Positions 2,842-23,128 of a DNA stretch of 64,000 bases are shown piece by piece. Origin of the DNA: Saprospiraceae bacterium (GTDB lineage: Bacteria > Bacteroidota > Bacteroidia > Chitinophagales > Saprospiraceae); the NCBI GenBank assembly GCA_013214355.1, contig JABSSL010000011.1:1-64000 (forward strand), written 5' to 3'. The translations under genes and the position numbers were made by a program. Each line of letters opens with the position of its first letter. The stretch's first letter is position 1. The notes under the pieces are model-generated. The model did not search any database. It worked only from the letters and a program-made list of their open reading frames with translations, and was not told where the DNA came from.

Positions 2842-5800
2842 TTAGTGTTGATAACTGACTCTCCTGTTGACCACTTCGTCGGCATATCTCAATTGTATAA
2901 GATACATACCGGAGGGCAACTGATTCCCATTGGAGTCATTCCCATTCCATTGCCATTGGTGATCTCCGGCTTCCAGTGGCCCGTTGTAGAGTCCTTTAAT
3001 TTGCCTTCCCTGAAGATCATAAATGCTTAAGCTAATCGCTTGCATCTGCTCTAAGCTAAAATGGATTCTAGTTTCCTCCTGGAAAGGATTTGGGCTGGCA
3101 TGTAGCTCAAGATTGCCTCCAGTTTGGTTATTGGAGGAATGAGATTCCATAGCCACCGGTGGTAAGATTGCCTGACCGTAACTACTGTTTTCGCCCAATA
3201 TTTCTAACTCACTGAATACGGCTGTAGCTGGATTGCGTGAGTTTTTGGAGTAGGTGATCAAGCCTAGCTCGATGCAGCTTTCAAAGATGGGGAAGGTGAT
3301 CGAGTGTGCCAAACGCCAATAGGAGTCATTGGTTGAGGTGTAAGTTTTAAACTTATTGCCTGAGCGCACAATTCTTAACCAAGCTACATCAGATCGGGTT
3401 TTGCTTTTATAAGTAAGGCTACCACCGGTACTATATCGATATTCTGTACGTACTCTCCGCGTTAAATCTTTAACTAAAGAAATTCTTTTCGCTCCTGGAA
3501 CTGTGCTTTCCATCATGACTACTCCTGCTCGCGCATTAGGATTTACAGCATCTACCTGCACCCTAATCTCGCCATCTCCACATAGCGTTTGACCGACGAA
3601 GGCTACCTCCCCGTTTGGGTAGCCGGTGCAATCTTCTGCCGTCAGGGTGAAGGTTTCTTGTTCTGGATCGAAGATGACTGATGTTTCCCCATCACAATCA
3701 ATATTGGTTTCCGTAAGTCCACATGGCAGGCCTGTGATTTCGACTTTTGCAGCACAGCTATTAATGTTACCGTTAGGGTCTATGCCTTTTACCTCTACCG
3801 TTACCGTCTGACCTACCGCATCACAGTCAATAACTGAAAGGCTTTGGCTGAGGAAGGATACCGTTCCGCAGGCATCAAATGAGGCGGCTGCATCAAAGAT
3901 GCTTGAACTGGGAATTGCAAGTTCATCTTCTCCATTGAAAGCAATGGTCACGTCTTTGCAAATGACTTCCGGGGCTTCTTCATCGCTAACTTCCAATCGA
4001 AAACTACAGAAGGCTTTATGGTTGGAATCATCCTTAGCACGCCACTGGATTTCATAAAGCCCCAATTCAAAAAATCCACTTTGATCGCTTGCCCAATCGG
4101 ACCAGCTACCGATTGGCGTTCCATCAGGCATTATTTCTCGAAAGCGAGATTTTAGATTTTTGATGCCACAATTGTCGAGTGGCGCTGCTTTAGGTAAGCT
4201 AATGTAGGCTCCACATTCTCCCTCATCCGTTGTTACTGATATATCCTCTGGGCAGGTTATTGTTGGCGGACTTGAATCTACTACAGTGATAGTTAGCTGG
4301 CAAGTGGCTATGTTACCATGGATATCCACTACCGTTAGCGTTTCTTCTCTTTCGCCCAAATCTGCGCAAGCAAAATCTGTGTTACTAAGACTAAGGTTAG
4401 CAATTCCACAGGCGTCAGTGGAGCCATTGTTGACGGCCTCGACGCTTGTGTTGGCTTGGCCATTTTCGTCCAGTTCCACACTGATGTTTTGACAAAGGGC
4501 TGTTGGGGCGATTTTGTCCTCTATGGTGATAGAGGCTTCGCATGCACTAGGGTTTCCACTGGCATCGATTACCGTTAGTAGCAGGGTTTGTACACCAATA
4601 TCCGTACAATCAAAATGCTCTTTACTTAGACTCAGACTGGCAATCCCACAGTTGTCCGTGGAGCCATTGTTAAGGATGTCGGGGCTTATGCTTGCTTGGC
4701 CATCTTCATTGAGTTGTACACTTACGTTTTGACAAAGGGCTACAGGGATAATCTTGTCCTCTATAGTAACGGTGGCTTCGCATGAGCTACTATTACCACT
4801 GAGATCGGTGACCGTTAATGTTACCGTTTGTGTGCCGGTCTCCGCACAATCGAAGCTTCCTTGATTGAGGCTCAGATTGGCGATACCACAGGCATCGGTG
4901 GAACCCATATTGATGGCTTCAGCCGTTGTACTCGCCAATCCGTTCTCGTCGACTTGTATGCTTACATTTTGACAAAGGGCTATAGGAGCAGTCTTGTCCT
5001 CTACGGTAACAACTGCCTTGCAAGTGCCGGAATTGCCGGATTGGTCTTGAACTGTTAAAGTGAGTAGATTGTCTCCCAGGCTTTCGCAGTTGAAAGCAGT
5101 AATATCCGTGTCAAAGTCTAATGAGCCACAGGTGGCAAATGACTGATCATTGATCGCATCTTCAGAGATATGAGCGATGCCATTTTCATCCAATTGTATA
5201 GTGATATCCTTGCAGCCAACAGTAGGAGGGGTTTCATTCTTGATGGTTAAGGTAATATCACAATAGGCTAGATTACCATTATAGTCCTCCACCATGATGG
5301 GGTAAAATTCTTCCACTCCAACATTCTCACAGTCAAAGGTTCTAGTTAAACGATAATCATCGAAATAAAGATCAAAGATGCCGCAGTGGTCTGTACTGCC
5401 ATTATCTGCGAGACCTGCATCAACTGTCACTTGCCCGTCGGGTCCTAATGATGCCGTTATGTCTTTGCAGAGCGGAGTAGGGGGAATGTTATCTCGCAAC
5501 CTAATTTTAGCCTCACAACTGCTGCTACTGCCATCAGGGTGATTTGCGGTTAAGGTAACTTCACTGAAACCGACATCCTGGCAATCAAATTCAGTTTTTG
5601 ATAAGCTGTATTGATTGTCAAAGCAAGATAAGAAGTCGGCAAGAAGAACTTGTTCTATGGATAGAAGGGCAAGTCCGTCTTCATCTAGCTGGATTTGGAC
5701 AAGATCTGGCGTACATTGAACAGCTTGCATCGCTGGAGCTTCCACCGTGATCGTGGTTTGGCAATTGGACTTTCTTCCAGTTGCATCCGTAACGATTAAG

Positions 5801-8487
5801 CCGATTATGTGGTCTCCGATATCATCGCAATCAAAGCTTAGTTCATTCAATGAATTTTCGGGTTCTACGCAGAACTCGGTGCTTTGTCCATAACCAATTT
5901 CGTCACATTCTCCATAGGCCAGCACATTACCATCCTTGTCTGTTAACCGATAAAACTTTGGTTCGTCAAAGCACCAGAACCCGTCACCATGGGAATCTTT
6001 CCAATTGAATAGATAACAGCCAGGCCCAATGGTGATTTCCTCGTGAAAGGAGGTTTCTGATGAATTGATTCCCGTCGAAGGAGAATTATGTGGATAACTT
6101 GGCCTTTCTGCATAAACAGTATTTCCATCTAAGCTGGTAATGGTCCAACTAAGGTCAGCATTGAAGCCCTCGCTTTCGACCTGTAACTCCAAGAAGCTTT
6201 GGCCAAGCTGGTAGCTCGTAATGTTTCCACAATTACTGTAGGAGCCATTATTTAGGCTGGTAGCAGCTAAGCTTGCGAATCCGTCTGAGTTCAATTGTAC
6301 CGTGCGGGGCCTGCAGATTGCCCGAGGGCCTCCTTCGACAGTAACGATACTCTGACAACTAGAAGTATTCCCACTGAGATCGGTGACTACTAGTGTTGCC
6401 GCATGATCTCCAATATTTTCACAATCCAATACCAATTCATCAAGAAAACTGTCAGCCTCTATACATATCTGGGTGCTTTGTCCATAGCCAATGTCATCAC
6501 ATTCGCCGTAAGCCAGCACATTACCATCCTTGTCTGTCAACCGATAAAACCTTGGTTGTTCAAAGCACCAGAATCCGTCACCATGGGAATCTTTCCAGTT
6601 GAATAGATAACAGCCAGGCGCAATGGTGATTTCTTCCTGGAAGGAGGTTTCTGATGAATTGATCCCTGGCGAGGGAGAATTATGTGGATAACTTGGCCTT
6701 TCCGCAAAAACGGTGTTCCCATCAAGACTAGTAATAGTCCAACTGAGGTCAGCATTAAAACCCTCACTTTCGACTTGTAATTCCAAGTGACTTTGGCCAA
6801 ATTGATAGCTGGAGATAACACCACCGCAAGGGTCGCTAGAGGACAGTTCAACCTGATTCGGATAAACGAGTCCTTGGCCTTGACTATTCAACTGAACAGA
6901 CACGTCTTTACAGGAAACGATGGGGGGTAATTGATCTGCTGCTGAAACCGCAATGCTAATTGTAGCCGTACAGCTTTTGCTATTCCCAGAGTCATCTGTG
7001 GCGGTCACCTTCACATGTTCGGTTATGGTCTGCCCATTGGAAGTACAGTCATAGCTAAAACCATTGTGATCAGCCGTGAGGGAGGCAGGGGTCGGGGAAC
7101 AATTATCTGAATAAGAATCAATCAGGTCGGAGGCACTAAAACTAACGTTACCATTCTCATCTGTAGATATAGTTGGGTTTTTGCAGCTGAGAGCGGGCGA
7201 TACTTCGTCTTTTACGGTAAGATTTGCTGTACAGGTCGTCCCATAGCCCGAAATAGTGCCAATCACTTCTAGAGTGATGGCTTGTGTCCCGATATCCGCG
7301 CAATCTAGTGTGGTCAATATTTCCTGACTTTGTACTTCCTCGACAAGTAGACCCTCTCCGGGGATAGTGGTAGTCGAACCAAAAGCCATGGGGAAATAGG
7401 CAAAAGCTTGGGTACCAGAAGAAGGCAAACTTACCTCTAGATCAATGCATACTGCTTTTGGGGCTGGGATAATCTTATATTTGACTCTTCCGTGCTCTGG
7501 GTTCCGAGTAGTTTCTCTTTCCAGGTACAGTTCCTCATCCTCATCCGTTGAAAAGTCAGGAGAAATATAGCTTCCTCCACCAGAGGTAGAAGTAACGGTA
7601 TATCCGCCGCCGCCGCTGCTTTCTGTAGCAATATTTTTTTTGCCTGGGGCTCCACTTCCAAAACCAAAGCCACCACTGGCCCGATCATCACAATTGCCAT
7701 ACATTCCTCCACCAGTTGGTTTGACTGGATTATCACGGACCTTTTTTCGTTGAGATCCTGGCCAGCCCATTTGCCCCGAACATTCGCATGGGGTCGGATA
7801 ATGGTCAGAACCAGCAAAGTAGGATGCATCGGAATTATCATCCCATAGGGATCCTGCCTGATGACAATGATATCGGTCCTGATAGACAGTTTGGTCATCA
7901 TAGCAATAGGTTTCACTACCATAGGGATTATATGGGAGACCATTGTTATACACACATTGAACGACTTCACCAGGCTTCCCATGGATTTGGATGAGGCAGC
8001 AATCGGCCGCACCGCCGCCACCACCGCCGGCCACGATCAGCAGGTTATACCCACTAGAGGGGTCAGGTTGGAAAAGGATACCTGTTCCTCCTCCTCCTCC
8101 GGCCTGGCTGGCGGTGACCGCCCATTCATCTTGTCCTTTTTCGCCGATAATAAGCAGAAGGGTGGCTCCGGGGGGGATCTGATTCGTGCCATGACCAATT
8201 TCAAACCAGGCACCAATTATGGCTCCTTGCCCTCCTTCAGCTCTCAGGTCTGGCCCTTCGCGATAATTCTTTTTGATCCCACCATCTCCTCCTACTCCCT
8301 CGAGGTAAATACGCCCTCCGGTCATATCATCCGGTATTTTTAATTCTTGGACCTTATCGTTTGGGTTATAATTGATGGTATGGAATTCAGCATCTGGGGT
8401 CAGGAGCGTTTGAGCGTTTCCAGAGAGGAACCCAAAGAAAAAAATAAGGGATGGCCATAGTAGTTTTTTACCAAGTGTCTTTTGCAT
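2842..8487 (-). CDS. Giant secreted multidomain protein (ALK-like Gly-rich, HYR/Ig-like repeats, ConA-like, T9SS sorting domain), copy B
   Basis: The protein has 1,881 residues. A signal peptide (to about residue 25, ending SGNAQ) is followed by a glycine-rich region (~35-345) with LLIVAGGGGGGAADCC and GGGGYTV. This layout resembles the ALK/LTK glycine-rich receptor domain. Next come two nearly identical ~198-residue blocks with the motif GCYLFNWKDSHGDGFWC. They are followed by ~80-residue Cys-containing HYR/Ig-like repeats of the form SGNSSSCEATVTIED, then a clearer HYR domain near 1400-1500. A DUF1349/ConA-like domain (~1590-1765, RAGVVMMES, WLRIVRSG) precedes the T9SS type A sorting domain (~1795-1881, SPNPFQEETRIHF). 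The product is probably a cell-surface or released adhesin or ligand-binding protein. Its function is unknown and no catalytic motif was recognised. It follows its own HTCC regulator gene by 162 bp. It is a paralogue of 13140-18884. Confidence 0.88.
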   Translation of the reverse strand: MQKTLGKKLLWPSLIFFFGFLSGNAQTLLTPDAEFHTINYNPNDKVQELKIPDDMTGGRIYLEGVGGDGGIKKNYREGPDLRAEGGQGAIIGAWFEIGHGTNQIPPGATLLLIIGEKGQDEWAVTASQAGGGGGTGILFQPDPSSGYNLLIVAGGGGGGAADCCLIQIHGKPGEVVQCVYNNGLPYNPYGSETYCYDDQTVYQDRYHCHQAGSLWDDNSDASYFAGSDHYPTPCECSGQMGWPGSQRKKVRDNPVKPTGGGMYGNCDDRASGGFGFGSGAPGKKNIATESSGGGGYTVTSTSGGGSYISPDFSTDEDEELYLERETTRNPEHGRVKYKIIPAPKAVCIDLEVSLPSSGTQAFAYFPMAFGSTTTIPGEGLLVEEVQSQEILTTLDCADIGTQAITLEVIGTISGYGTTCTANLTVKDEVSPALSCKNPTISTDENGNVSFSASDLIDSYSDNCSPTPASLTADHNGFSYDCTSNGQTITEHVKVTATDDSGNSKSCTATISIAVSAADQLPPIVSCKDVSVQLNSQGQGLVYPNQVELSSSDPCGGVISSYQFGQSHLELQVESEGFNADLSWTITSLDGNTVFAERPSYPHNSPSPGINSSETSFQEEITIAPGCYLFNWKDSHGDGFWCFEQPRFYRLTDKDGNVLAYGECDDIGYGQSTQICIEADSFLDELVLDCENIGDHAATLVVTDLSGNTSSCQSIVTVEGGPRAICRPRTVQLNSDGFASLAATSLNNGSYSNCGNITSYQLGQSFLELQVESEGFNADLSWTITSLDGNTVYAERPSYPHNSPSTGINSSETSFHEEITIGPGCYLFNWKDSHGDGFWCFDEPKFYRLTDKDGNVLAYGECDEIGYGQSTEFCVEPENSLNELSFDCDDIGDHIIGLIVTDATGRKSNCQTTITVEAPAMQAVQCTPDLVQIQLDEDGLALLSIEQVLLADFLSCFDNQYSLSKTEFDCQDVGFSEVTLTANHPDGSSSSCEAKIRLRDNIPPTPLCKDITASLGPDGQVTVDAGLADNGSTDHCGIFDLYFDDYRLTRTFDCENVGVEEFYPIMVEDYNGNLAYCDITLTIKNETPPTVGCKDITIQLDENGIAHISEDAINDQSFATCGSLDFDTDITAFNCESLGDNLLTLTVQDQSGNSGTCKAVVTVEDKTAPIALCQNVSIQVDENGLASTTAEAINMGSTDACGIANLSLNQGSFDCAETGTQTVTLTVTDLSGNSSSCEATVTIEDKIIPVALCQNVSVQLNEDGQASISPDILNNGSTDNCGIASLSLSKEHFDCTDIGVQTLLLTVIDASGNPSACEASITIEDKIAPTALCQNISVELDENGQANTSVEAVNNGSTDACGIANLSLSNTDFACADLGEREETLTVVDIHGNIATCQLTITVVDSSPPTITCPEDISVTTDEGECGAYISLPKAAPLDNCGIKNLKSRFREIMPDGTPIGSWSDWASDQSGFFELGLYEIQWRAKDDSNHKAFCSFRLEVSDEEAPEVICKDVTIAFNGEDELAIPSSSIFDAAASFDACGTVSFLSQSLSVIDCDAVGQTVTVEVKGIDPNGNINSCAAKVEITGLPCGLTETNIDCDGETSVIFDPEQETFTLTAEDCTGYPNGEVAFVGQTLCGDGEIRVQVDAVNPNARAGVVMMESTVPGAKRISLVKDLTRRVRTEYRYSTGGSLTYKSKTRSDVAWLRIVRSGNKFKTYTSTNDSYWRLAHSITFPIFESCIELGLITYSKNSRNPATAVFSELEILGENSSYGQAILPPVAMESHSSNNQTGGNLELHASPNPFQEETRIHFSLEQMQAISLSIYDLQGRQIKGLYNGPLEAGDHQWQWNGNDSNGNQLPSGMYLIQLRYADEVVNRRVSYQH
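4261..5460 (-). repeat. Tandem 240-bp coding repeat units in secreted protein copy B
   Basis: The phrase encoding ALCQNVSV (TGACAAAGGGC on the plus strand) recurs with an exact 240-bp period, ending at 4500, 4740 and 4980. More diverged units in register extend to about 5460. Each unit encodes one ~80-residue HYR/Ig-like domain with conserved Cys. The strict spacing suggests unequal crossover or gene conversion. Confidence 0.8.
5875..6824 (-). repeat. Direct repeat with ~594-bp period encoding the GCYLFNWKDS domains
   Basis: The stretch at about 5881-6230 recurs almost unchanged at about 6475-6824; for example AGCACATTACCATCC starts at 5921 and 6515. The encoded segments share long near-identical runs such as ELQVESEGFNADLSWTITS. 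This is an internal duplication of a two-domain block inside the secreted protein gene. Confidence 0.8.
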
Positions 8488-8649
8488 AACGAGAAATTGA
8501 TAAGTAATTCTTGATGTTTTGGATAAGCCGAATAGAATACTTTAGGTATAAATAGATTAGGCGAAGAGAATAGGTGAGTGCGGCTTTGTTTATCGGAAAC
8601 AAAGGTCGATGGAAGGGAGCTAGACTAGATGGAATATATGCGCATCGAC

Positions 8650-11600
8650 TTAAAAATCCCCAGTAATACTGGGGCTTTCGCCAAATTGTTCGGAATAAGA
8701 CTTAGAAAAATAGGAAGGATCTGAAAAGCCGACATCATAGGCGACTTCCTTTACGGAGAGGCTGGAGGTAAGTAATAAGTGCCGTGCTTTTTGCAAGCGC
8801 AAAGACCGTAGAAAGATGGCGGGCGACTGACCGGTGAGTGCTTTTACCTTTCGTCCTAATTGTGATCTACTGAGATGTAGGGCTTGACTTAAGGCATCCA
8901 GGTCAAATTGGGTATCCGTCATCTTTTTATCGAAGATTTCTTTCAAATGTTGTATAAAAGCATCCTCTTTATTAGGCTTGGAAGAAGGGAGAATATCTGT
9001 TTGTTCATTGTAAAGATCTCGGTACCGCAATTGTAGTTTTCGCCGAATTTGTAACAGGTTTTGCATTCGAACCAAGAGCTCTTCTTCATGAAAGGGTTTG
9101 GCTAGGTAATCATCCGCTCCATATTTTAGCCCGGCGATCCTGGATTCAACACCTGCTTTGGCAGTAAGTAAAATGATAGGAATATGACTGGTACGCGCGT
9201 CTTCTTTTAGTGTTTCGCATAACTCAAACCCGTCCTTCTCCGGCATCATAACATCGCTGATGATTATGTCGGGGATTATTTCCAGGGCGACCTCTATCCC
9301 TAATTGGCCGTTCTCTGCTACAGCAAGCTGATATTTGGAACCCAAGCAAATCTGTAAATATTTAGCGATCTCAGGACTGTCTTCAACAACTAAGGCTAAT
9401 GGCAGGTCACCACTTACTGCTCCATTTTCTAGTTTTCGACTTTCAGCCTTCGATGAACTTATTGGCGTACTTCCCTGCTCTACAGCTTTTGTGGTTTTAG
9501 CTCCTGCGGTGATGGGGAGTCTGACATAAAAGCGGGTTCCTTTACCCATCTCACTTTCTACGGTGATGGTACCCGCTAGTATCTTCACCAAGTCATGCGT
9601 TAAGGATAATCCAATTCCGGTACCGATTTCTGACTGTTGAAGATCGTTGTTGGCACGAAAGAAGCGATCGAAGATAAAAGGCAGTTCTTCTTTAGGGATA
9701 CCTGGCCCTGTATCCGTGACGTTTATCTGCAAATGAGATGCCGCTTCTTTATCAACCGCTGACCAGCTAGATATCTCTAAGCGTACTTGTCCTTTTTTGG
9801 GGGTGTATTTAATGGCATTTGCTACAAGGTTAGATACGATTCGAGAGAGCTTTTGTTGGTCAAAATCCATTAAGAGGCTGGACTCATTCGACAAGAATTC
9901 CAACTGCTGCTCCTTGCTATGGGCTAGGGCCTGAAATTGTCCTGTAAGGTTTTCAAGAAAAGGGACCACATCGCCGTATTGGAAATTGAGTTGTAACGCT
10001 CCCGATTCCAGTTTTTGGAGCTCCAGCATTTGATTGATAAGGTCTAAAAGGTCCGAGCCATTTTTCCGGATCATACTTGCTCCCTCGTCCAACCATTTCT
10101 TTGGGTCTTTCTCGACTTGCTCGATCATACCTAAGATGATGGTTAGGGGCGTTCGAAACTCATGCGTAATATTGGCGTAAAGTCTACTTTTTATAGCGTC
10201 CAATGCCTTAATATTCTCGGCTTCCTGCCGCTCAAGTTGTCTGGATAACTGGAAACGATATAGCAGGAAAATAATAGCAGAGAGGGTAGCAATATAGATG
10301 GCATAGGCCCAGCGGCTACGCCACCAGGGAGGGAATACTTTCAATTCAAGGAGGTTTACTGCTTGCGAGCTTAGGTTTTCAGGCGTTTTCACTCTAGCCC
10401 GGAGTAGATAAGTGCGGGGAGAAAGGTTAGTAAAATTGATCTGTAGGTTGTCGTCTACTGGAGTCCACTCATCATTCAAACCTACCAATTGATATTCATA
10501 GCGGTGATTTTGTTGAACCGATCTATTTAAGTCAGAAAGTGAAATGTCGATCGATCGATAAGGGTAATGGAGCTTGATTTCCTTTTTTTCTGGATCGATA
10601 AAGTGATTAGTCATAGCGGACTCAGCTCCCTCTTCGGGATCACTTACCGTAATGGTATGGATGACAATGGATGGGGTAAGACTGTCAAGCAATAATCGAT
10701 CTGGCCTTACAGTTAACAGACCATCGGTGCTACCGAAAAAAAGTCGATCGGAGTCTTTACTCTTCAGATAGGCTTTGGGTAGAAAGGACACGCTTGGCAA
10801 TCCGTCTTGCAATCCCAAGGGTAGAAATGTCGTTTCTGAGCCATCAGGTAGTTGCCGGGCTAGTCCGTTTTCCGTACTGATCCACAATACGCCAGCAGCA
10901 TCTTCCAAGATTCCGTAGATCGTATTATCTGGTAAACCATCTTTTTCATAGTAGCGCTCAAAAGTCTGAGTGTCAGGAAGGAATCGATTGAGCCCTAGGT
11001 TTGTCCCGATCCATAGCACTCCCTTTGAGTCCTCGTAAATCGTCCAAACTAGATCATTTGACAAGGACTTGGGCTTATTCGTGTCATTTTCAAAGTGCTT
11101 AAAGTTATCCTCCAACGGATCAAAAACCCCCAGTCCTCCCTCAGTTCCAATCCAAAGTTTATCTTCCTGATCGAAAAAGAGGAATCTGACATTGTCATTC
11201 CCCAAAGTGTTAGGATTACTGGGATCCTTGCGGTAACGTTTGATATTGCCCGTTCTAGGATTTAATTTATTGAGGCCATCTCGCCAGGTCCCTGCCCAGA
11301 TAAATCCGCTTTTGTCCTGGGTCAAGGCCCAGATGCGATTGGCACTGATGCTATTGGGATCCTCCGGCCGATGTAAGTAGGACTGAAACTGCTTAGCTTG
11401 AGCATCCATCCTGATTAAGCCTCGGTCATTGGAAGCAATCCAAATCGAATTGTCTGAGCCACGGATAAGTTTGATAATCCGGCGGCTGGATAAGCTGTTA
11501 GGTTGAAGTTCAGCAGGCACCACCGATCTTCTCCTAATTAAGCGTCCATCTTCTTGCTTCGTGAACTGTTCAAGTCCATGATTAAGGACACTAACCCAAA

Positions 11601-13109: not shown

Positions 13110-13139
13110 AAAAAACCTATTTCTAATAAAATACTTGCC

Positions 13140-16100
13140 TTAGTGTTGATAAATGACTCTCCTGTTGACTACTTCGTCGGCATACCTCAATTGTACAAGG
13201 TACATGCCCGAAGGCAACGAATTACCATTGGAGTCATTCCCATTCCATTGCCACTGGTGGTCTCCGGCTTCCAGTGGCCCGTTGTATAGCCGCTGAATCT
13301 GCCGGCCCTGCAGGTCGTAGATAGCTAAGTGGATCTCTTCCATCATCTTCAAGCTAAAATGGATCCTAGTTTCCTCCTGGAAAGGATTTGGGCTGAGCTT
13401 TAGCTCAAGATTGCCTCCGGTTTGGTTATTGGAGGAATGAGACTCCATAGCCACCGGTGGTAAAATTGCCTGATTATAACTACTGTTTTCACCCGATATT
13501 TCTAACTCACTGAATACGGCTGTAGCTTCTTCGTCAGCATCCTTGGCGTAGGTGATTAGCCCGACCTCAATACAGTCCGCAAAACTGGGGAAGTTGATGG
13601 TGTGGGCCAACCTCCAATAGGAGCCATTGGTAGAGGTGTAAGTTTTAAACTTATTACCAGATCTAACAATCCGTAGCCAGTCCACACCTGAGCGGTTTTT
13701 GCTCTTGTGCCTGAGACTACCTCCTGTGCTGGATCGATACTCCGTACGTACTCTTCGAGTTAGATCCTTGACTATAGCTACCAGTTTAGCTCCAGGATCA
13801 CTACTCTCCATCATCACCACGCCAGCTCTAGCATTTGGGTTGATGGCATCTACATGAACGATGATTTCTCCGTCGCCACACAAAGTGGTTCCCACAAAGG
13901 CAACTTCACCATCTGGATAGCCGGTGCAATCTTCTGCTGTAAGGGTGAAGGATTCTTCTTCTGGATCGTAGGTAATCTCCGTTCCTTCTTCACAATCAAT
14001 TCCTGTCTCCGTAAATCCACAGGGCATACCGATCACCTCTACCTCGGCTGTACAGCTACCGGTATTGCCATTGGGGTCTATTCCGATGATCTCTATCTCT
14101 ACCGTTTCACCCACAGCCTCACAGCCTATGGCTGCCAGACTTTGGCTGACGAAGGAAACTGCTCCGCAAGCATCAAAGGAGGCCTCGGCGTCAAAGATGC
14201 GGGTACTGGGAATGTCAATACTAGCTTCGCCATTGAACGTGACGCTGATGTCCTTACAGACCACCTCCGGTGCTTCCTCATCACGCACTTCTAAGGTATA
14301 GCGGCAGAAGCCTTTGTTATTCGAATCATCCTTGGCACGCCATTGAACCTGATAGAAACCTAGGCTGAAGAAGCCGCTCTGGTCATTCGCCCAGGAAGAC
14401 CAGTCTTCAATCGGCGTTCCATCCGCACTGACGGCCCGGTATCGCGATCTCAAGTTCTTTATTCCGCAATTGTCAAAGGGGGGCGCCTTTGGTAAGCTTA
14501 CGTAAGCCCCACATTCTCCCGGATCGGTATTGACCAGCATATCTTCGGGGCAAGTCAGCGTGGGTTTGATTTCATCTAAGATGTTGACACTGGCCTCACA
14601 GGAGCTGCTATTGCCATTAGCATCATAGACGGTCAAGGAGACGGTTTGACTGCCAACATCGGAGCAGCCGAAGCTTTGTTGGCTGAGGCTGAGGTTGGCA
14701 ATTCCGCAAGCATCGGAAGAGCCATTATTGATGGCATTAGCCGTTATGCTACCTATGCCGCTTTCATCGAGTTGTACCGTTACATTTTGGCAGTTGGCCA
14801 CCGGCGCTATTTTGTCCTCTACGGTCACGGTCGCCTCGCAGGAGCTGCTGTTACCATTGGCATCATAAGCGGTCAAGGAGACGGTTAGACTGCCGACATC
14901 AGGGCAGCCGAAGCTTTGTTGGCTGAGGCTGAGGTTGGCAATTCCGCAAGCATCGGAAGAGCCATTATTGATGGCATTAGCCGTTATGCTACCTATGCCG
15001 CCTTCATCGAGTTGTATCGTTACATTTTGGCAGCGAGCAATGGGGACAGTATTATCTTCTATGTTTACGTTGATCGTACAAGCACTTTCATTGCCCGAAG
15101 CATCTATTGCCGAAAAGGTAAATGGGACAATTCCAACATCACTACAGCTTGCCTTAAAAGGGTTATCGAAGATGGTGAAGGAACAATTATCTGACACCTG
15201 ATCTGCAATTAGTTCTGCTCCAACTCCGACGGTGCCATCATTTTGCAGAGCCACCGTTATATCCACACAGTCTATCTCTGGGGCTATATGATCTTCAACA
15301 GAAACAGATGCAGTACAACTACTAGAATTATTATAAATATCCGTAACAGTTAGATTTACCATAGTGGAAATGCCGACATTTGAGCAACTAAATTCTTTGA
15401 GATCCAGGTCGAATGTAGCAATACCGAAGTTATCGCTGGAGTTCTTATCGATCATGTCGGGTGTAATGTTTGCCTGGCCATTGTGGTCCAACTCAATGCT
15501 GATATCCTGACATTTGGCTGCTGGAGGGGTGTTATCAAGAATCGTGAGTACCACATCACAATAATCTGTTAGGCCAGCATTATCCTCTAAAATCATGTTC
15601 CATAAGTTAATAGTGCCAACCTGATCACAACTGAAAGTGCGTGTAGACTGGTAGTCATCAAAGTAAAGACGGTTAACACTACAATTGTCGATACTCCCAG
15701 CATCGAATTGATTTGCATCTATGGAAACCTGTCCATTTTCATTGAGCTGTACACTTAGATTCTTACAACTGGCTTTCGGAGGAGTATTGTCCCGAACGCT
15801 TATGAAAGCAGTACAAGTACTTTCCTGTTCGTAGACATCACTTACTGTTAGGGCTACAGTTTGAGTGCCTATGTCGCTACAGTCAAACGTAGTAAATGAA
15901 GGTTCTGTGCTAGTAATCTGATATCCATTGCAAGGCAGCGTCGTGTTATTAATATCGTCAATGGAGAAAGTAGCTTGGTTGTTTATGTCCAACTCAACTG
16001 TAATATTCTCGCAAATTGCAACTGGGGCAGGCGGTTTTACTTTAATGACCCGTTTACAATCCATAACTCGCCCCGTGGAAGTGATGGTGCTTACCGTGGC

Positions 16101-18884
16101 ATAGTGATAGCCTGCATCAGAGCAACTAAACACTTTATCAGCCACATGATACCAGGCATTCCCAGGGTTATTGTTATTACTAAGACTAAAGGGGGTATCG
16201 ACCCCGCCGCCGATGCTTTCACATTCACCGTAGGCTAGCACGGCGCCAGTGGAGGTGGTGAGGCGGTAGAAGTAATCAGCATTATCCTCTGCACAAAGGA
16301 AACCATCAACAAAACTGTCTTTCCACTTAAAAATAAAGTTCCCGTGACGAGGGAAAGGAATGTCTACGACGAAATGCCTAATCTGGGCCAGTCTTCTTTG
16401 CTGAACATCAGGTATAGAAGGATCAAGGTTGCTAGGGTACCCCGATCCAGAATCATAGATGGTTTGGCCATCTGCACTAGTAATTTCCCACCAAAAGTCA
16501 TTATTCCACCCATCGGACTGGATTTCTAGCTGGAGGGAGGCCTGTTTAAAACCATAACGCAAGGGCTCTCCACAAGCGTCGGCTGTAGCAGTTCCCAATT
16601 CACGGGCATTAAGGGTCTCGAGCCCCGTTTCCGGCAGCTGTACTTCCACCTCAGCAGTCGGGCAGCTAGGTACTGAGTTGACGATCGTTACTGTCGAGGT
16701 ACAAGTACTTTGCAAACCCTCTTCGTTAGTAACGGTCAAGTTAACCTCCTGTATCCCTTCGTCCTGACAATCAAAGACTAATTCATTGACTAAGGTCGGT
16801 GCATTGCTAACACAAAACTGTGTAGTAGAACCTCCTTTAATTCCTTCGCATTCATCATATGCTATTACATTTCCACTATCGTCAGTTAGTTCATAATAGA
16901 AGGTGCCACCTTCATCAGCACAGAGAAAGCCATCTGAGAATATACCATCATTCCAAACGAATAAATAACAACCGGGATCCAGGGTAATATTATAGGAAAA
17001 GTCGGTTGGTCTTAGCGCTGCATCAGCAGAAATATACGGCAAGCTATAGGGGGCTATCGAAGCATGGACCGTGTTTCCATCCAAACTTGTAATCTGCCAG
17101 CTGGTTTCCCTTACGAACCGGTCTCCTTTAACCTCCAGAAATACATTGGGTTGTTGTAGTTGTGTACTCACGGTGCTGCAATCATCGAAGGAAGCTGCAT
17201 CCAACTGGCCTGACATGATCGATACCTGAGATTGACCATTTAGTGCCATTGTGATGTCCTTACAAAGGGCTTGCGGCGGTGTACGGTCGGCTACCTGAAG
17301 TATAATGGTAACTGTGCTGGTACAACTTGCCTGGTTACCATTGTCGTCCTGAGCGGTCAGCGTGACCGTTTCCGTTTTCGTCTGTCCATTGGCCTCGCAA
17401 TCCTCTGTATAGTTAAAGCTAGTCCTATCCAGGCTAAGACTTGACGGGGAAACGGTACAATTGTCTTGATAACTTTGGAAGATCTGTCCGACGTCAACCA
17501 TCGCTTGACCATTGGTATCGGTGGTGACAGAAATGTTATTACAACTTACACTTGGTGCTCCACCGTCGACCACTGTCACGGTCACAGTACAGGCTTGGTA
17601 GAAAGAGGTGCCGTTTTCTAAGACCAAGAAATTCACAGTTTGAGGCCCCAGATCTGCACAATCAAAAGACACACCCTCCAGTTCGAAATTACTGTTAGAA
17701 TAGAGGAAGGTACTGCCTGAGGGGTTAGAGGTAACTTCGGCTAGCGTATTAAAGGGAATATAAGTAGGGTTTGAGTTAGTCAAAGTTGCCGTTTTATTGT
17801 GGCAGAGGATAACAGGATCAGGAGTGATGGTATAGATGATTTTTCCATGCTGAGGATCGGTAGTTGAACTTCTGCGGATACGTTCTCGTGGGTAATCGGC
17901 CAGCGCCAGTCCTTCATTAAGGTAGCTTCCGCCTCCTCTATCGATATGTGAGGTAAATCCACCTCCGGCACCACCGCCGTTAAATCCGCCTCCAGTAGAC
18001 CCTATGCCACCACCACCAAAGCCGAAGCCTCCTTTTCGATCTAGATCAGTGCAGGCATTGCCATTAGAATTATATCCACCTCCGTATCCGCCCGTTGGCT
18101 TAACAGCATTGGTCGGTATCGAGCTTGCTCCTGGCCACCCCATCTTTCCAACCAGACAAGCATCACAGTTGGAGGAGCTTAAAGGACTCCAGGAAGAAGC
18201 ATTAGCATTGTCCGTGAAGGCCGATCCCCCTGCATTACAAAGCGAAGTAATGAGGGTACCCGTATAGAAGCAATAGTCATTACTTCCTTCTTCACTAGTA
18301 CCGATCAACACACAACCATGGGGTTCTCCTGGCCTGCCGTCTTCCTGTACTAGGCAACAATCAGCTGCTCCTCCACGACCACCACCCGCTACTGCGAGCA
18401 TCGTCCAGTGTCCGTTCGCCTCCTGGAAGAAAACAGCAGACCCACCGCCGCCACCCGCACCATTGGCAAAGGCATTGCTTCGGTTTTGTCCATGCTCTCC
18501 CGGGATAAAGAGTATTCTTGCCCCGGGGGGGATTTTACCAGGTCCTTGCCCAATAGGGAAAGTGGCCTTAATCACAGCACCTTGCCCTCCCTTAGCTCTT
18601 ACTGAGACCTGACTCGGGTAGTTTTTCTTGAATCCACCATCACCTCCATAAGTGTCAAACTGAATCCGACCACTTGTAATAGTATTAGGTAGAGTGAATT
18701 CCTGTACTTTGTTTCCGCTATTATAAGAGATAGTGTGTGGTTGACTATTAGCGGTCAAATTGGGTTGAGCATAATTTGCACCGAAACAAAGGAGGAGGAT
18801 TGGAATGATAATGGGGAAGGCCTTTTTTCTGGTAGTGTCTATTTTTACACTGGGTATCATACTTGATTTTTTCTGATGAAACAT
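13140..18884 (-). CDS. Giant secreted multidomain protein (ALK-like Gly-rich, HYR/Ig-like repeats, ConA-like, T9SS sorting domain), copy A
   Basis: The protein has 1,914 residues and the same architecture as 2842-8487. The signal segment (FPIIIPILLLCFGANYAQ, cleaved near 40) implies export. The start could also be the internal Met in SSMIPSVKI, which leaves a more normal signal-peptide n-region. A Gly-rich ALK/LTK-like domain (~50-355; VAGGGRGGAADCC, GGFGFGGGGIGSTGGGF) is followed by HYR/Ig-like repeats. Two diverged pGCYLF-type domains lie near 640 and 850 (KWKDSFVDGFLC). Two almost identical 80-residue repeats (DACGIANLSLSQQSFGC), a HYR domain, a ConA-like domain (~1625-1800) and a T9SS sorting domain (~1830-1914) complete it. 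It lies 110 bp after HTCC copy A. Its role is probably cell-surface or extracellular; the ligand is unknown. Confidence 0.88.
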   Translation of the reverse strand: MFHQKKSSMIPSVKIDTTRKKAFPIIIPILLLCFGANYAQPNLTANSQPHTISYNSGNKVQEFTLPNTITSGRIQFDTYGGDGGFKKNYPSQVSVRAKGGQGAVIKATFPIGQGPGKIPPGARILFIPGEHGQNRSNAFANGAGGGGGSAVFFQEANGHWTMLAVAGGGRGGAADCCLVQEDGRPGEPHGCVLIGTSEEGSNDYCFYTGTLITSLCNAGGSAFTDNANASSWSPLSSSNCDACLVGKMGWPGASSIPTNAVKPTGGYGGGYNSNGNACTDLDRKGGFGFGGGGIGSTGGGFNGGGAGGGFTSHIDRGGGSYLNEGLALADYPRERIRRSSTTDPQHGKIIYTITPDPVILCHNKTATLTNSNPTYIPFNTLAEVTSNPSGSTFLYSNSNFELEGVSFDCADLGPQTVNFLVLENGTSFYQACTVTVTVVDGGAPSVSCNNISVTTDTNGQAMVDVGQIFQSYQDNCTVSPSSLSLDRTSFNYTEDCEANGQTKTETVTLTAQDDNGNQASCTSTVTIILQVADRTPPQALCKDITMALNGQSQVSIMSGQLDAASFDDCSTVSTQLQQPNVFLEVKGDRFVRETSWQITSLDGNTVHASIAPYSLPYISADAALRPTDFSYNITLDPGCYLFVWNDGIFSDGFLCADEGGTFYYELTDDSGNVIAYDECEGIKGGSTTQFCVSNAPTLVNELVFDCQDEGIQEVNLTVTNEEGLQSTCTSTVTIVNSVPSCPTAEVEVQLPETGLETLNARELGTATADACGEPLRYGFKQASLQLEIQSDGWNNDFWWEITSADGQTIYDSGSGYPSNLDPSIPDVQQRRLAQIRHFVVDIPFPRHGNFIFKWKDSFVDGFLCAEDNADYFYRLTTSTGAVLAYGECESIGGGVDTPFSLSNNNNPGNAWYHVADKVFSCSDAGYHYATVSTITSTGRVMDCKRVIKVKPPAPVAICENITVELDINNQATFSIDDINNTTLPCNGYQITSTEPSFTTFDCSDIGTQTVALTVSDVYEQESTCTAFISVRDNTPPKASCKNLSVQLNENGQVSIDANQFDAGSIDNCSVNRLYFDDYQSTRTFSCDQVGTINLWNMILEDNAGLTDYCDVVLTILDNTPPAAKCQDISIELDHNGQANITPDMIDKNSSDNFGIATFDLDLKEFSCSNVGISTMVNLTVTDIYNNSSSCTASVSVEDHIAPEIDCVDITVALQNDGTVGVGAELIADQVSDNCSFTIFDNPFKASCSDVGIVPFTFSAIDASGNESACTINVNIEDNTVPIARCQNVTIQLDEGGIGSITANAINNGSSDACGIANLSLSQQSFGCPDVGSLTVSLTAYDANGNSSSCEATVTVEDKIAPVANCQNVTVQLDESGIGSITANAINNGSSDACGIANLSLSQQSFGCSDVGSQTVSLTVYDANGNSSSCEASVNILDEIKPTLTCPEDMLVNTDPGECGAYVSLPKAPPFDNCGIKNLRSRYRAVSADGTPIEDWSSWANDQSGFFSLGFYQVQWRAKDDSNNKGFCRYTLEVRDEEAPEVVCKDISVTFNGEASIDIPSTRIFDAEASFDACGAVSFVSQSLAAIGCEAVGETVEIEIIGIDPNGNTGSCTAEVEVIGMPCGFTETGIDCEEGTEITYDPEEESFTLTAEDCTGYPDGEVAFVGTTLCGDGEIIVHVDAINPNARAGVVMMESSDPGAKLVAIVKDLTRRVRTEYRSSTGGSLRHKSKNRSGVDWLRIVRSGNKFKTYTSTNGSYWRLAHTINFPSFADCIEVGLITYAKDADEEATAVFSELEISGENSSYNQAILPPVAMESHSSNNQTGGNLELKLSPNPFQEETRIHFSLKMMEEIHLAIYDLQGRQIQRLYNGPLEAGDHQWQWNGNDSNGNSLPSGMYLVQLRYADEVVNRRVIYQH
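14581..15060 (-). repeat. Two near-identical 240-bp tandem coding repeats in secreted protein copy A
   Basis: Bases 14581-14820 and 14821-15060 match almost base for base; the run GCCGAAGCTTTGTTGGCTGA is identical in both. Each encodes one 80-residue Cys-containing HYR/Ig-like domain. The low divergence implies recent duplication or gene conversion. Confidence 0.85.
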
Positions 18885-18994
18885 ATGGACAAATCCATTT
18901 TCTTTGGAAGCAAGATTTGACCCAGCACAAAGGTGTGGGAAGGCAGAAAAAGATAGGTTTGCTATTTGCGCAAGTAGGTTTGTTATTTGTGCAT

Positions 18995-21900
18995 TTAGCT
19001 AATTTCTCTAGTATCGGTAGGGCTTTCACCGAATTCTTCGGTATAGGAAGTGGTGAAATAGTTTGGCGTGGGGAAGCCTACCTCGTAGGCGATTTCTTTA
19101 ATGGGAAGCTTAGTGGATTGGAGAAGGAATTTAGCTTTTTGCAGCCGTAGAGATCTTAGGTAGATGGATAGGGATCGACCGGTTAGCGCTTTGACTTTTC
19201 GTCCCAATTGCGAACGACTTAAATGCATCTCCTGAGCAAGAGCCTTAGCATTAAAATCCGGATCATCAATCCGAGCTTCAAAAGCTGCTTTCAACTTCAA
19301 TATAAAAGTGTCCTCCTTTATGGTTTCTATTTTCTGGATATCTATCTCCTGAGAAATGGGTTGGTTGTAGAGATCCTGATACCTGGCTTGGAGCTTCTGG
19401 CGAATGGCCAGTAGGTTTTTCATACGTACCAAGAGTTCTTCTTCGTGGAAAGGTTTAGCGAGATAATCATCAGCCCCTTGTTGAAGTCCGGTAATACGAG
19501 ATGCTACATCCACCTTTGCAGTTAGCATGATGATCGGAATATGACTAGTGCGTTGATCCTCTTTTACTAGATTACATAGCTCAAATCCATTTTTTTTCGG
19601 CATCATGACGTCACTGATAATGATATCAGGGATTTGCTCGATGGCCAGATCTATTCCTTGCTGGCCATCACTTGCCAAAAGCAGTTGATAGTGGTTTTGC
19701 AGGCAGATGGAGATATATTCTACTATTTGGGAATTGTCTTCTACAATTAGCGCAATCGGCAAGTCGGAATTAGTAGGTGTTGTGACCGGTTTGGATGGAC
19801 CTTGCTTCCCGATGACCGCTGTTTGCACTTTAGTTGTGCTGGTTGCTGCCTGAGGAGCAGCGTTCCTGCTGACTGGGATGGAAATAGAGAAGGTAGACCC
19901 CTTACCTTCAGTACTCTTTACCTTAATGTCGCCGCCCATGAGCTTGACGAGCTCATGAGTCAGAGAAAGGCCGATGCCGGAGCCAATTCGCGATGCATGT
20001 TCATTATTAGAAGCTTGAAAAAAACGGTCAAAAACGTGAGGGAGTTGATCTGAAGGGATTCCTATGCCCGTGTCTGTAACAGCAAGGTGGAGGGATTCGG
20101 GTGTCTGGGTGGTAGAGATACTTAAGCTGATTTCCCCTTTCTCCGGCGTATACTTAATAGCATTGGATAAGAGGTTAGTCAGAATGCGAGTAATTTTCTC
20201 TTCATCATAATCCATTTCCAGCCTGGCTATCTCCGTATTGAACGTCAATATTTGTTTTCCGCTCTGGGCAAATCCCTCAAATTGTTCATAGATGCTGCGA
20301 AGAAAAGGAATGATATTTGCTCGGCGATAATTGAGGTTAAGGCCACCAGATTCTACTTTTTGAAGTTCCAACATTTGATCGACCAGATTGAGCAAATTGG
20401 CATTGTTGTCGCTAATCATTCGCGTTCCTTTTTCCAACCAGCGATCCGGTTCTTTTCTAATTCGCTCTGCCATTCCACCGATGATGGTCAGCGGGGTGCG
20501 AAATTCATGTGTGATATTAGCATAAAGCCTATTCTTGAAGTTATCCAATCGCCTTAGGGAAGCTGCCTCTTGTTTTTCTAGTTGACGACGAAGCTGCAAA
20601 CGATAAAGGATCAAGAGTATTAGTAGGACAAGGATAACATAAATGCCATATGCCCATCCGCTACGCCACCAAGGGGGATAAACCTGGAGTGTCAACATGC
20701 TTTTCTCCTGCTGTATCTGTCCATAACGGTCAATAGCACGTAGTTTAAGCCTGTAATTTCCAGGATCCAAATTGGCGAAGGTTACTTTCATATTCTCCGC
20801 TAAAGGCATCCATCTCTTGTTAAGCCCAATCAACTGGTAGGTATAGGTGTAGGGCTTATTTTTCTCCCAGCGTAGGTCTGTGAAGGCAAGACTAACTGCT
20901 TGATCGAGGTGAGTCAAGGCGATATCCTTACTTTTTTGCTCGGTAAAATAATCAGTGATCAATCCTCCCTCATTAGAGCGAAGATTGTTCCTTGTAAAGG
21001 AATGCAACCTAAGTCTAGGAATAATTTGTTCCCTTGACAGCTGGAGTGGATCCACTATTACAATGCCTGCCGTGGAACCAAAATATAACAATCCATTAAT
21101 TGAACTCTTAAAGAACGCTTTCGGAACAAAGGACGTACTGGCCAAACCGTCTTTCTGCTTTATGGCTCTGAAGTTGTTTTCGGTATCTGTAGACAAAAGC
21201 AGAGCCAAGCCAGCATCAGTACTAACCCACAGATTTTGTTCATTATCCTGTAAAATCCCATAAATGGTATTGCTTGGCAAGCCATCTTTTTCATAAAAAC
21301 GTTCAAAGGTATTGTTTTTACGATCAAAGCGATTGAGACCTAGGCCTGTGCCGACCCAGAGATTCCCTTGATGATCTTCGTACATACACCAGACAATACC
21401 GTTACTAATGGAAGAGGGGTTGTTGGGGTCATGGGTAAAATGGTAGAAACGCTCTTCCTTTTTGTGAAAGTGGCTTAGGCCAGCATGACTACCAATCCAA
21501 ACCTCACCGTGACTATCGGTGTAGAGTGACTTGATTTGATCATCCAGCAAAGAAGAAGAATCCTTGGGGTCATGTAGGTATCGCTGAATAGCTCCTGTTT
21601 TTGGATCAAGCCGATTTAAGCCTTCTTGAAAAGCCCCAATCCAAACCCACCCTTCTGGATCTTCCGTTATCCCCCAAATGCGATCTTGCGAAATGGAATT
21701 TGGGTTCGACGGCTCATGCCGATAATGCGTCCATTGCCCAGTTTCCATATTGTATTCGTCCAAACCAGAAGAATTCGTGGCGATCCATAGTTGATTCTGC
21801 TTACCCTTGTGTAACTCAATGATGAGATCACCACTTAAGGATGCATCGTTTCGGGGGTTATGACGTAGGTTAGCTTTCTTATTTAGATCCTGGGGGTCAT

Positions 21901-23128
21901 TTATGTCTAGGAGGTCAATGCCATTTCCCAGTAGTCCTACCCACATTTGTCCATCATTAGTTTCTGCGAAGGTCCTTACCACTCCGGGCGATAAGCTAGC
22001 TGGATCTTCCTGATTATGACCGAAAAAAGAGAAAGGACTTGGGGCCAGATTTTCAATGCTTATTCCACCGCCTGCCATTCCAACCCATAATGCACCTTCT
22101 TTATCGATGGTAAGCACATGAATGTCAAAAGGGAAACTAAGCTCTTTCAGATGATTTTGCACAACGGCGGGCTTATTCAAATCGATCTCAAGTACTTTGT
22201 TTTCATAAACAGCCCATAGCTGGTTTTTGGGGTTGATAGTCATATAGTAGAGCCGCCGCGTGTCAAGATCGGGTTGTAACTTAATTATTTGCTCATACGC
22301 TTCTAGAGGTCTGATCTTCGGTTTTTTTTCAGCTGGTGATAGCGTGAAAATGCCACTTTGGTTACCAAATAAAATAATATCCCCAGACTGATCAATTGCC
22401 ATACGCCCCTCTATCATTCCTGACTCAATCGTACCTGTATCGAAGGGGAAAGAAAACTGCTTTATCACTTTAGTGTCTGGGTGCCATCGCACCAGACCAT
22501 TTTGAGTTCTTAACCAGAAATGTCCCGATTGGTCTTGAAGAACTCCACTTATGTATATTTCTCCCGCTAATTGACTGGTGATTTGTTCCTCTTCTTTCAA
22601 TAGATATGCTCCATCAGCCTTTTGAAATACCCGTAGCAATGTATGGTTATTCGCTATTGCCCATATATTCCCCTCTTTATCTTCGAGGATTCCCGAAATT
22701 TCAAGCGCTTGATTTTTTTCAACTGATTCGTGTACAAATATCCTTTCAAAGTATCCGGTCGAGCGATCAAGCCGATTGAGTCCTCTTTGTGTACCTACCC
22801 AGAGATTGTATGAACTATCTTCGTGAAGACTTAGAATCCAATTATTGCTTATTGAGGTAGAGTCATCGGGGTCAAAACGGTAGGTGACAAAATGATTACC
22901 ATCAAAACGATTAAGGCCGTTCTCAGTCCCGATCCACATGAATCCTGCGTGGTCCTGGAAAAGGGTACGAATGTAATTGCTGGAGAGCCCATCAACTTGC
23001 TTATAGGAGAGAAATGGAGGATTGTTTTGCGCCAATGAGTTACTGGATGCTAGCAAAGCCAGCAAGAAGTAAAGATGCACTAAACATCTATTCCAGCAGT
23101 TTATATTGTTTATTTGCTTTCGGCTCAT
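18995..23128 (-). CDS. Hybrid two-component system sensor kinase/response regulator (HTCC), copy A
   Basis: The protein has 1,377 residues. A signal or anchor segment ending SNSLAQ is followed by propeller repeats (~35-700; MWIGTENGLNRFDG). Next are a Y_Y_Y domain (YTYQLIGLNKRWMPL), a TM segment (~825-850) and a HisKA with YANITHEFRTPL (His874). A HATPase domain (GSGIGLSLTHELV), a receiver with Asp1173 in SDVMMP, and a C-terminal AraC HTH follow. It is a full-length paralogue of 8650-12795 with the same domain order. The stop codon lies 110 bp before the start of secreted protein copy A on the same strand, so the two are probably co-transcribed or functionally paired. Confidence 0.93.
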   Translation of the reverse strand: MSRKQINNINCWNRCLVHLYFLLALLASSNSLAQNNPPFLSYKQVDGLSSNYIRTLFQDHAGFMWIGTENGLNRFDGNHFVTYRFDPDDSTSISNNWILSLHEDSSYNLWVGTQRGLNRLDRSTGYFERIFVHESVEKNQALEISGILEDKEGNIWAIANNHTLLRVFQKADGAYLLKEEEQITSQLAGEIYISGVLQDQSGHFWLRTQNGLVRWHPDTKVIKQFSFPFDTGTIESGMIEGRMAIDQSGDIILFGNQSGIFTLSPAEKKPKIRPLEAYEQIIKLQPDLDTRRLYYMTINPKNQLWAVYENKVLEIDLNKPAVVQNHLKELSFPFDIHVLTIDKEGALWVGMAGGGISIENLAPSPFSFFGHNQEDPASLSPGVVRTFAETNDGQMWVGLLGNGIDLLDINDPQDLNKKANLRHNPRNDASLSGDLIIELHKGKQNQLWIATNSSGLDEYNMETGQWTHYRHEPSNPNSISQDRIWGITEDPEGWVWIGAFQEGLNRLDPKTGAIQRYLHDPKDSSSLLDDQIKSLYTDSHGEVWIGSHAGLSHFHKKEERFYHFTHDPNNPSSISNGIVWCMYEDHQGNLWVGTGLGLNRFDRKNNTFERFYEKDGLPSNTIYGILQDNEQNLWVSTDAGLALLLSTDTENNFRAIKQKDGLASTSFVPKAFFKSSINGLLYFGSTAGIVIVDPLQLSREQIIPRLRLHSFTRNNLRSNEGGLITDYFTEQKSKDIALTHLDQAVSLAFTDLRWEKNKPYTYTYQLIGLNKRWMPLAENMKVTFANLDPGNYRLKLRAIDRYGQIQQEKSMLTLQVYPPWWRSGWAYGIYVILVLLILLILYRLQLRRQLEKQEAASLRRLDNFKNRLYANITHEFRTPLTIIGGMAERIRKEPDRWLEKGTRMISDNNANLLNLVDQMLELQKVESGGLNLNYRRANIIPFLRSIYEQFEGFAQSGKQILTFNTEIARLEMDYDEEKITRILTNLLSNAIKYTPEKGEISLSISTTQTPESLHLAVTDTGIGIPSDQLPHVFDRFFQASNNEHASRIGSGIGLSLTHELVKLMGGDIKVKSTEGKGSTFSISIPVSRNAAPQAATSTTKVQTAVIGKQGPSKPVTTPTNSDLPIALIVEDNSQIVEYISICLQNHYQLLLASDGQQGIDLAIEQIPDIIISDVMMPKKNGFELCNLVKEDQRTSHIPIIMLTAKVDVASRITGLQQGADDYLAKPFHEEELLVRMKNLLAIRQKLQARYQDLYNQPISQEIDIQKIETIKEDTFILKLKAAFEARIDDPDFNAKALAQEMHLSRSQLGRKVKALTGRSLSIYLRSLRLQKAKFLLQSTKLPIKEIAYEVGFPTPNYFTTSYTEEFGESPTDTREIS

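Follow-up and report, generated by a model that had tools for sequence, protein, structure and literature searches.

Hybrid two-component regulators (HTCC, also HTCS), which carry everything from sensor to AraC-type DNA-binding domain in one chain, are usually read as regulators of glycan use. Those of Bacteroides polysaccharide utilisation loci (PULs), such as BT4663, control SusCD and enzymes. According to the excerpts seen of PMC3878776, the predicted operators of B. thetaiotaomicron HTCS are direct repeats at an average distance of 21 bp. Large surface proteins exported by the type IX secretion system (T9SS) include SprB/RemA and the ixotrophy hook protein, for which the excerpted text of PMC11205867 describes no dedicated adjacent HTCC. 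In the phage Pam3, a conserved glycine-rich stem bears a variable distal tip proposed for receptor recognition (excerpts of PMC9608196). Here we analyse the first 64,000 nucleotides (the window) of contig JABSSL010000011.1 of a marine Saprospiraceae bacterium (GCA_013214355.1, an 11.19 Mb draft genome), where two HTCCs are each followed by a giant T9SS-type surface protein with an N-terminal glycine-rich domain (GRD) of the ALK/LTK type (Table 1). In the open-licence literature, as far as it was covered, neither pairs of an HTCC with an adhesin nor T9SS proteins with an ALK-type domain were found described; measured against that literature, HTCCs, T9SS adhesins and glycine-rich tips are each known, and their combination in repeated modules away from polysaccharide loci appears new.

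Two regulator-giant modules and their recurrence

These modules are best read as surface adhesins or receptors that lie outside polysaccharide loci and are each under their own regulation, and each module is probably a self-contained sensor-to-adhesin circuit. On the minus strand the order is HTCC-B, giant-B, HTCC-A, giant-A and then a peptidase gene (S9 peptidase domain, called on the copy in the congeneric genome G014). The preliminary description had this twofold HTCC-then-giant order right in coordinates, succession and orientation. Both HTCCs carry Reg_prop, Y_Y_Y, HisKA, HATPase_c, Response_reg and HTH_18 above the Pfam cut-offs, the complete sensor-to-AraC set in one chain, with a hydrophobic stretch recognisable by eye ahead of HisKA. 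By sequence, the solved sensors nearest to HTCC-B are 4a2l, which we take to be BT4663, and 3v9f and 3ott, presumably also of PUL origin. The HYR repeats and T9SS sorting domain ascribed earlier to both giants pass the Pfam cut-offs, and a signal peptide is recognised by eye. Since SprA, the T9SS machinery component looked for, is present in the genome (SprA_N, 497 bits), a T9SS is likely, and with the curated sorting-domain cut-offs passed the giants qualify as type A cargo. The ConA-like domain announced with them is at best a sub-threshold match to DUF1349 (E 0.011 and 0.0034). As also stated previously, SusCD and glycoside hydrolases are lacking here: none of the 32 window open reading frames (ORFs) scanned matched a SusC, SusD or glycoside hydrolase family, the set leaving out shorter ORFs, a Lon-like one at 37190-39592 and those at 41912-42865 and 43067-43690. 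These 32 ORFs thus hold no SusC/SusD pair with glycan enzymes nearby, as a PUL would.

Within this genome the pairing is specific. Among 42 T9SS genes of at least 1000 aa (39 from candidate scoring, three giants added manually), a hybrid histidine kinase-AraC regulator lies within 3 kb of the four GRD giants and of no other. With an orphan GRD gene included, this makes 4/5 GRD genes against 0/38 other T9SS giants (Fisher 4e-5; 9e-6 without this contig-broken fifth gene), the 38 including genes near contig ends and the comparison being a sample in which 150 of 322 T9SS candidates and 150 of 228 regulator candidates were scored. The same genome holds a second HTCC-giant-HTCC-giant array on contig C124; there the second HTCC is split into two overlapping frames (L040 356-4701), which correspond to a single 1448-aa frame in its G398 orthologue (L236). 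The orphan seems to be broken across two contig ends (L041 6560-7382, L047 4597-6816), and its front adjoins a divergent gene, which we take to be patatin-like, as it does in the congener G014 (L087). That HYR/T9SS giants in general are HTCC partners was rejected, with none at six non-GRD loci (three of them contig-cut) and none among the 38 in the genome.

Among relatives, the domain occurs in 9 of 100 genomes of the family (E 1e-6), and a manual tally places an HTCC adjacent or one gene off, at times divergently, in 13 of 21 GRD clusters. At the level of the order, 21 of 248 genomes gave a match (E 1e-8); 20 further regions from 16 genomes include one adjacent HTCC and one separated by two genes, and another histidine kinase stands beside the GRD gene in two of these regions (L182, L199) and in none of the remainder. 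Non-HTCC histidine kinases were seen by GRD genes at L182 8282-9701 (HATPase_c, 81 bits), L199 and L151. The class gave matches in 16 of 395 genomes (E 1e-15), two of which, from one genus of another family, carry module arrays. In G697 (G697:C9, L285-L289), six GRD ORFs share about 80 kb with six hybrid regulators, of which one is fragmented; by eye, the array consists mostly of regulators and secreted-looking ORFs, and the C-terminal ends of the giants are much alike while their fronts vary. These counts leave out G129 and G312 (weak order matches) and the weak class matches except G660, and many of the compared genomes are metagenome drafts. The 15 loci listed by name, several on the same contigs as the surveyed regions, comprise nine with an HTCC, two with another two-component sensor and response regulator (one sensor called by eye) and four with none (two contig-cut). 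One HTCC-GRD locus (L145) belongs to a cultured relative, Flavilitoribacter nigricans DSM 23189. The adjacency across relatives that the preliminary description proposed to search for is borne out in the family clusters and in the arrays of another family, and is nearly absent farther out (1/20). We regard the recurrence of the regulator-giant pair outside PULs as real and lineage-bound, as far as gene order and sequence can tell.

Seen from the regulator side, a GRD gene is adjacent or one gene further at 10 of the 20 best HTCC-B homologues (at least 829 bits, HTCC-B included, three best per genome scored). Two more stand in arrays whose giants have other fronts, namely leucine-rich repeats (LRR; G361:C107) and an N-terminus that Pfam does not name (G361:C98). 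The SusC and sorting-domain tags used in this neighbourhood survey are rough self-made motifs. None of five lower-scoring homologues taken as controls has a GRD gene beside it. In one control (G016, L249) the HTCC is followed by an ORF that looks secreted and runs for at least 587 aa up to the contig end, and in G237 (L190 1-7049) a 1511-aa ORF with a type-B-like end lies directly behind one, so that surface partners without a GRD may be more frequent than our counts show. Seven GRD-linked regulators that were scanned comprise one with a propeller and six with TPR sensors, with the histidine kinase-receiver-AraC output in all; both window HTCCs are of the propeller type. On a tree of 50 regulator cores, the GRD-linked label changes seven times against a shuffled mean of 16.2 (0/500 as low), in a sampling that is biased because most regulators from other genomes had been picked up through a GRD gene nearby. 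From the 69 regulators gathered, this tree omits the split C124 regulator and seven rows that were duplicates or partial; the remaining exclusions did not reach the helix-turn-helix (HTH) domain.

Table 1. Positions of the two modules and associated features in the window
Feature	Position	Strand	Description
HTCC-B	18995..23128	-	1377 aa; propeller, Y_Y_Y, HisKA, HATPase, receiver, AraC HTH
giant-B	13140..18884	-	1914 aa; T9SS-type surface protein
HTCC-A	8650..12795	-	1381 aa; hybrid two-component regulator
giant-A	2842..8487	-	1881 aa; T9SS-type surface protein
ALK/LTK-type glycine-rich (TNF-like + Gly-rich) domain, giant-B	17814..18767	-	alignment and predicted fold
ALK/LTK-type glycine-rich domain, giant-A	7456..8409	-	by identity to the giant-B domain, 43-44%
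T9SS type A sorting domain, giant-B	13161..13391	-	Por_Secre_tail 28.1 bits (cut-off 27); TIGR04183 33.2 (cut-off 23)
T9SS type A sorting domain, giant-A	2878..3093	-	Por_Secre_tail 28.8 bits (cut-off 27); TIGR04183 32.5 (cut-off 23)
Operator B (putative)	18955..18993	-	two 18-bp direct repeats TGCACAAATAACAAACCT / TGCGCAAATAGCAAACCT, 21-bp spacing, 16/18
CACCTTTG box	18928..18935	-	about 20 bp past operator B
Half-operator A (putative)	8630..8645	-	single ATGCGCATATATTCCA
GACCTTTG box	8600..8607	-	putative -7-like box, by consensus match
Module B interval	12988..23478		absent from the syntenic site of G398; 10.5 kb versus 376 bp
Tract shared with G334:C440	15005..18990		about 98% identical; 65-82% around it

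Putative operators between regulator and giant

Operator B begins right after the stop of HTCC-B (18995) and lies upstream of CACCTTTG; this box and GACCTTTG are putative -7-like elements, by consensus match. A scan with the Bacteroidota -33/-7 consensus gave no match in the regulator-to-giant gaps and one upstream of HTCC-A. Comparable repeats are widespread at such pairs. We tested 26 gaps, 25 of which lead to a giant (two without GRD; some are mutual orthologues, and the start of the G023:C237 giant was placed by eye): 22 of the 25 contain a direct repeat of at least 14/18 with a 20-21 bp period (p <=0.010 in every case against 200 resampled sequences). The gap behind a G014 HTCC that has no giant contains no repeat. 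Among 220-bp upstream regions from the window and 40 stretches of its own genome, repeats of this level occur at 0/324 ordinary genes and 0/32 HTCC genes. At L104 (13995-14828), a 21-bp repeat of 16/18 lies ahead of the next gene where an HTCC stands beside a long secreted-looking ORF; L104 and L190 are perhaps further units of HTCC and surface protein.

The repeats also vary together with the regulators. Operator similarity rises with HTH identity in the adjoining regulator (21 pairs, from 21 of the 25 giant gaps; Mantel r 0.683, 0/5000 permutations); for the 15 pairs retained of 17 submitted to a spacer test (spacer of at least 54 bp), the correlation is 0.705 for the operator (0/2000) versus 0.287 for the spacer to the start codon (77/2000). 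The non-GRD giant of G361:C98 and the GRD giant of G361:C92 have a common operator type (16/18) and regulators with 81% HTH identity, so that here the operator follows the regulator and not the tip. With up to two mismatches, operator B and half-operator A each occur solely at their own giant in the 0.90 Mb searched of the 11.19 Mb genome (partly overlapping stretches). The gap repeats therefore likely represent an HTCS-type operator that co-varies with the DNA-binding domain of its regulator. Module B shows direct repeats at the 21-bp spacing predicted for HTCS operators; the giant-A promoter (window 8600-8650) has one copy versus two, 21 bp apart, in the G398 orthologue, an exact unit difference, and this single copy possibly means weakened control of module A.

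Several points weigh against reading the modules as self-contained circuits. An adjacent HTCC is lacking in 8 of the 21 family clusters and in 19 of the 20 regions farther out, and 7 of the 20 HTCC-B homologues are same-subfamily regulators without a visible giant (three of these seven are one orthologue and two lie near contig ends; one further homologue of the 20 is not assessable). In the window, the repeat of giant-A is a single copy scoring 11/18, and L142a (13) and G058:C302 (11) likewise fall below a threshold that was chosen after the scores had been seen. The gaps, 108-400 bp with 60 bp of regulator end, did not all equal the 220-bp controls in length. Repeats at 4 of 55 other HTCC-neighbouring genes indicate a mark of HTCCs that is not specific to giants, and the correlation of 0.287 for the spacer indicates that ancestry partly confounds the operator-HTH relation. 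The idea that the GRD is always paired with an HTCC is rejected by the outlying regions; secreted homologues without an HTCC, which the preliminary description had named as evidence against a dedicated system, do exist in part of the material, including one gene of this genome.

The glycine-rich tip, and possible duplication and exchange

The N-terminal domain of giant-B is recognised by its predicted fold. A model built from 21 sequences of the window and related loci (pLDDT 74.2, pTM 0.81; low confidence at residues 152-180, 187-206, 238-242 and 256-275) retrieved, with Foldseek against the PDB, six chains at E <=0.001, every one ALK or LTK. The VIA Z score is 18.6 for ALK (7ls0; 232 residues, 3.6 A, about 21% identity), followed by the Bxb1 tail-tip protein (10.2), the Pam3 fibre (10.0) and the next at 3.8. 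A virus library gave 80 matches at E <=0.001, with tail-fibre and giant-virus proteins among the matches listed. By sequence the domain is elusive: ALK_LTK_GRD (PF12810) matches neither window giant, the giant-B GRD alone matches no Pfam family, and giant-B finds no solved structure at 0.001; PF12810 is matched by 3 of 17 aligned glycine-rich domains (best 6.4e-6), those of the window not among them. The ALK/LTK-like domain proposed from the letters and the structure prediction suggested for it thus converge, and the giant-B tip, as modelled, appears to be a real ALK-type ligand-binding fold at the fold level. It would differ from ALK/LTK in being the N-terminal end of a bacterial T9SS cargo protein; a Pfam scan of the window giants and HTCCs found no tyrosine kinase domain, which sets them apart from the ALK/LTK receptor family. 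The phage fibre tips, predicted to share the fold class, are trimeric and assembled with a chaperone, unlike the GRD here, which sits on the HYR stalk of a bacterial surface protein. Outside glycine columns, GRD residues 141-240 are the least identical (0.04-0.12), to be compared with the variable tip in the excerpted account of Pam3. In a relative, Pfam identifies a ricin-B lectin domain behind the glycine-rich tip. Tandem GRD proteins with similar C-terminal ends were seen at L146, L082 and L139; in one of them Pfam identifies these ends as ricin-type lectin domains, and those at L146 and L082 stand beside HTCCs.

The modules had been called tandemly duplicated; the tandem arrangement stands and an old duplication is plausible, and a recent in-place one is disfavoured. 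The giants are 48% identical (1910 columns), with about 40% in the front and 70% over the final 640 residues, and the HTCCs about 43-44% (43% over 1395 columns). The two glycine-rich domains are 44% identical to each other versus 26-38% to the 15 others aligned; tips that are mutually nearest among 17, together with the 70% identical ends, speak for an old duplication. HTCC-B is nearer to regulators of G334 (67%) and G058:C167 (47%) than to HTCC-A (44%), and the congener G398 holds module A alone at the syntenic site.

Four congeneric genomes are each built differently at this site. In the interval bounded by the peptidase gene on one side and the genes for 148-aa, 150-aa and DUF763 proteins on the other, the window carries both modules, G398 module A alone, G334 HTCC-B and a giant as far as its contigs show, and G014 an HTCC-B-like regulator followed directly by the peptidase. 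Over the first 4 kb of giant-B, identity to G334 is about 98%, versus 65-79% in HTCC-B and 71-82% in other matches above 1 kb (single windows 59-89%). The tract has one edge at the HTCC-B end and is a putative exchanged cassette that would comprise operator, signal peptide, glycine-rich domain, middle and part of the HYR repeats. Module A resembles G398 at 97% over 4.5 kb, 96% over 2.0 kb and 92% over 3.5 kb, against 69-87% in other matches above 1 kb; a non-GRD HTCC locus gives 82.7%, with single 300-bp windows of up to 93%. Recombinational exchange would be the simple explanation of these tracts; the repertoire would then change by gain and loss and, probably, through swaps of complete modules or of their tip halves. 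That the tracts are instead products of chimaeric metagenome assembly is doubtful. G334 and G398 are indeed drafts with 6% and 8% contamination, and HTCC-A of G398 is divided between two contigs; against this, tracts occur at several loci (module A, the front of module B and a C124 module at 94%), an edge coincides with the end of HTCC-B, and the site is structured differently in the four genomes. In G014, several contig ends (L086-L089) run into common adapter-like peptides, which indicate untrimmed sequence. One ORF for a peptidoglycan-binding-domain protein lies in the window (30470-31852); G398 has two similar ones in tandem (L251 8474-11621).

A proposed sensor-to-adhesin circuit and its alternatives

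From the family to which it belongs, each HTCC would sit in the inner membrane with a periplasmic propeller, and a cue would lead to autophosphorylation and transfer to its own receiver domain. The AraC-type domain may then bind the private 21-bp-spaced repeats observed behind its own stop and switch on the adjacent giant from the -7-like box about 20 bp downstream. The giant would be exported via Sec and the type IX system and retained on the surface by its C-terminal sorting domain, the chain of HYR repeats holding the ALK-type tip off the cell. There the tip may bind a ligand on particles, algae, prey or other cells, as suggested by the role of the fold in ALK and phage fibres and by the lectin domain in a relative.

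Cue and ligand need not coincide, since the fronts of the giants seem to be replaced without a change of sensor and operator. In G334 the giant-B glycine-rich domain is 98% identical versus 57% for the HTCC-B propeller, and same-subfamily regulators also stand beside giants with LRR or Pfam-unnamed fronts; sensor and tip therefore look uncoupled, and strict sensor-tip coupling is disfavoured. The earlier proposal of a dedicated sensor with its own surface ligand-binding protein is supported by the recurrent pair, the putative operator and the ALK-type fold, and less so in that implied match. A wider picture is conceivable, and we offer it tentatively: apart from polysaccharide utilisation, the bacterium would keep an expandable set of giant surface receptors, each controlled by its own sensor by way of a private operator and bearing a swappable tip (ALK-type, LRR, lectin-bearing or other), and modules or tip halves would pass between species as targets change.

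The modules resemble Bacteroides PUL regulators in domain order, sensor sequence and direct repeats at 21-bp spacing by the target; here the target is a single giant surface protein and not SusCD with enzymes, and the operator lies right behind the regulator's stop. One alternative is a glycan-use system in which the giant would capture a glycan at the surface, the HTCC would sense the resulting oligosaccharide, and the regulon would include transporters and enzymes encoded at other genomic sites. The proximity of the sensor to 4a2l, 3v9f and 3ott, the ricin-B lectin domain of a relative and the weak DUF1349/ConA-like match would fit. We nevertheless consider it unlikely: each operator was found solely at its giant in the stretches searched, the 32 window ORFs are free of PUL families, the G697 array holds mainly regulators and secreted-looking ORFs, and some linked regulators have TPR rather than propeller sensors. 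It is less probable still that the HTCC is a feedback regulator monitoring the envelope, or the export or binding state of the giant, instead of an external small molecule. Adjacency, private operators and a sensor type that varies (propeller or TPR) with a constant partner type agree with it, and the apparent exchange of the giant front without the sensor and the occurrence of one HTCC subfamily beside giants of differing fronts do not. Incidental adjacency, with the HTCC controlling something else, is hardly credible given 4/5 versus 0/38 in the genome and gap repeats that follow the regulator, even with both gene types abundant in large Saprospirales genomes (at least 36 hybrid histidine kinase-AraC frames of at least 650 aa here, one being the split C124 regulator, and many T9SS genes) and GRD genes elsewhere often alone.

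Read as sensor-to-adhesin circuits, the modules have operators that can be found by sequence alone, which makes regulator-target pairs predictable in large Saprospirales genomes. HTCCs beside single giants also allow a test of how an ALK-type ligand-binding fold is used by bacteria, and the exchange of tip halves, if true, would point to strong pressure to alter what the cell surface recognises.

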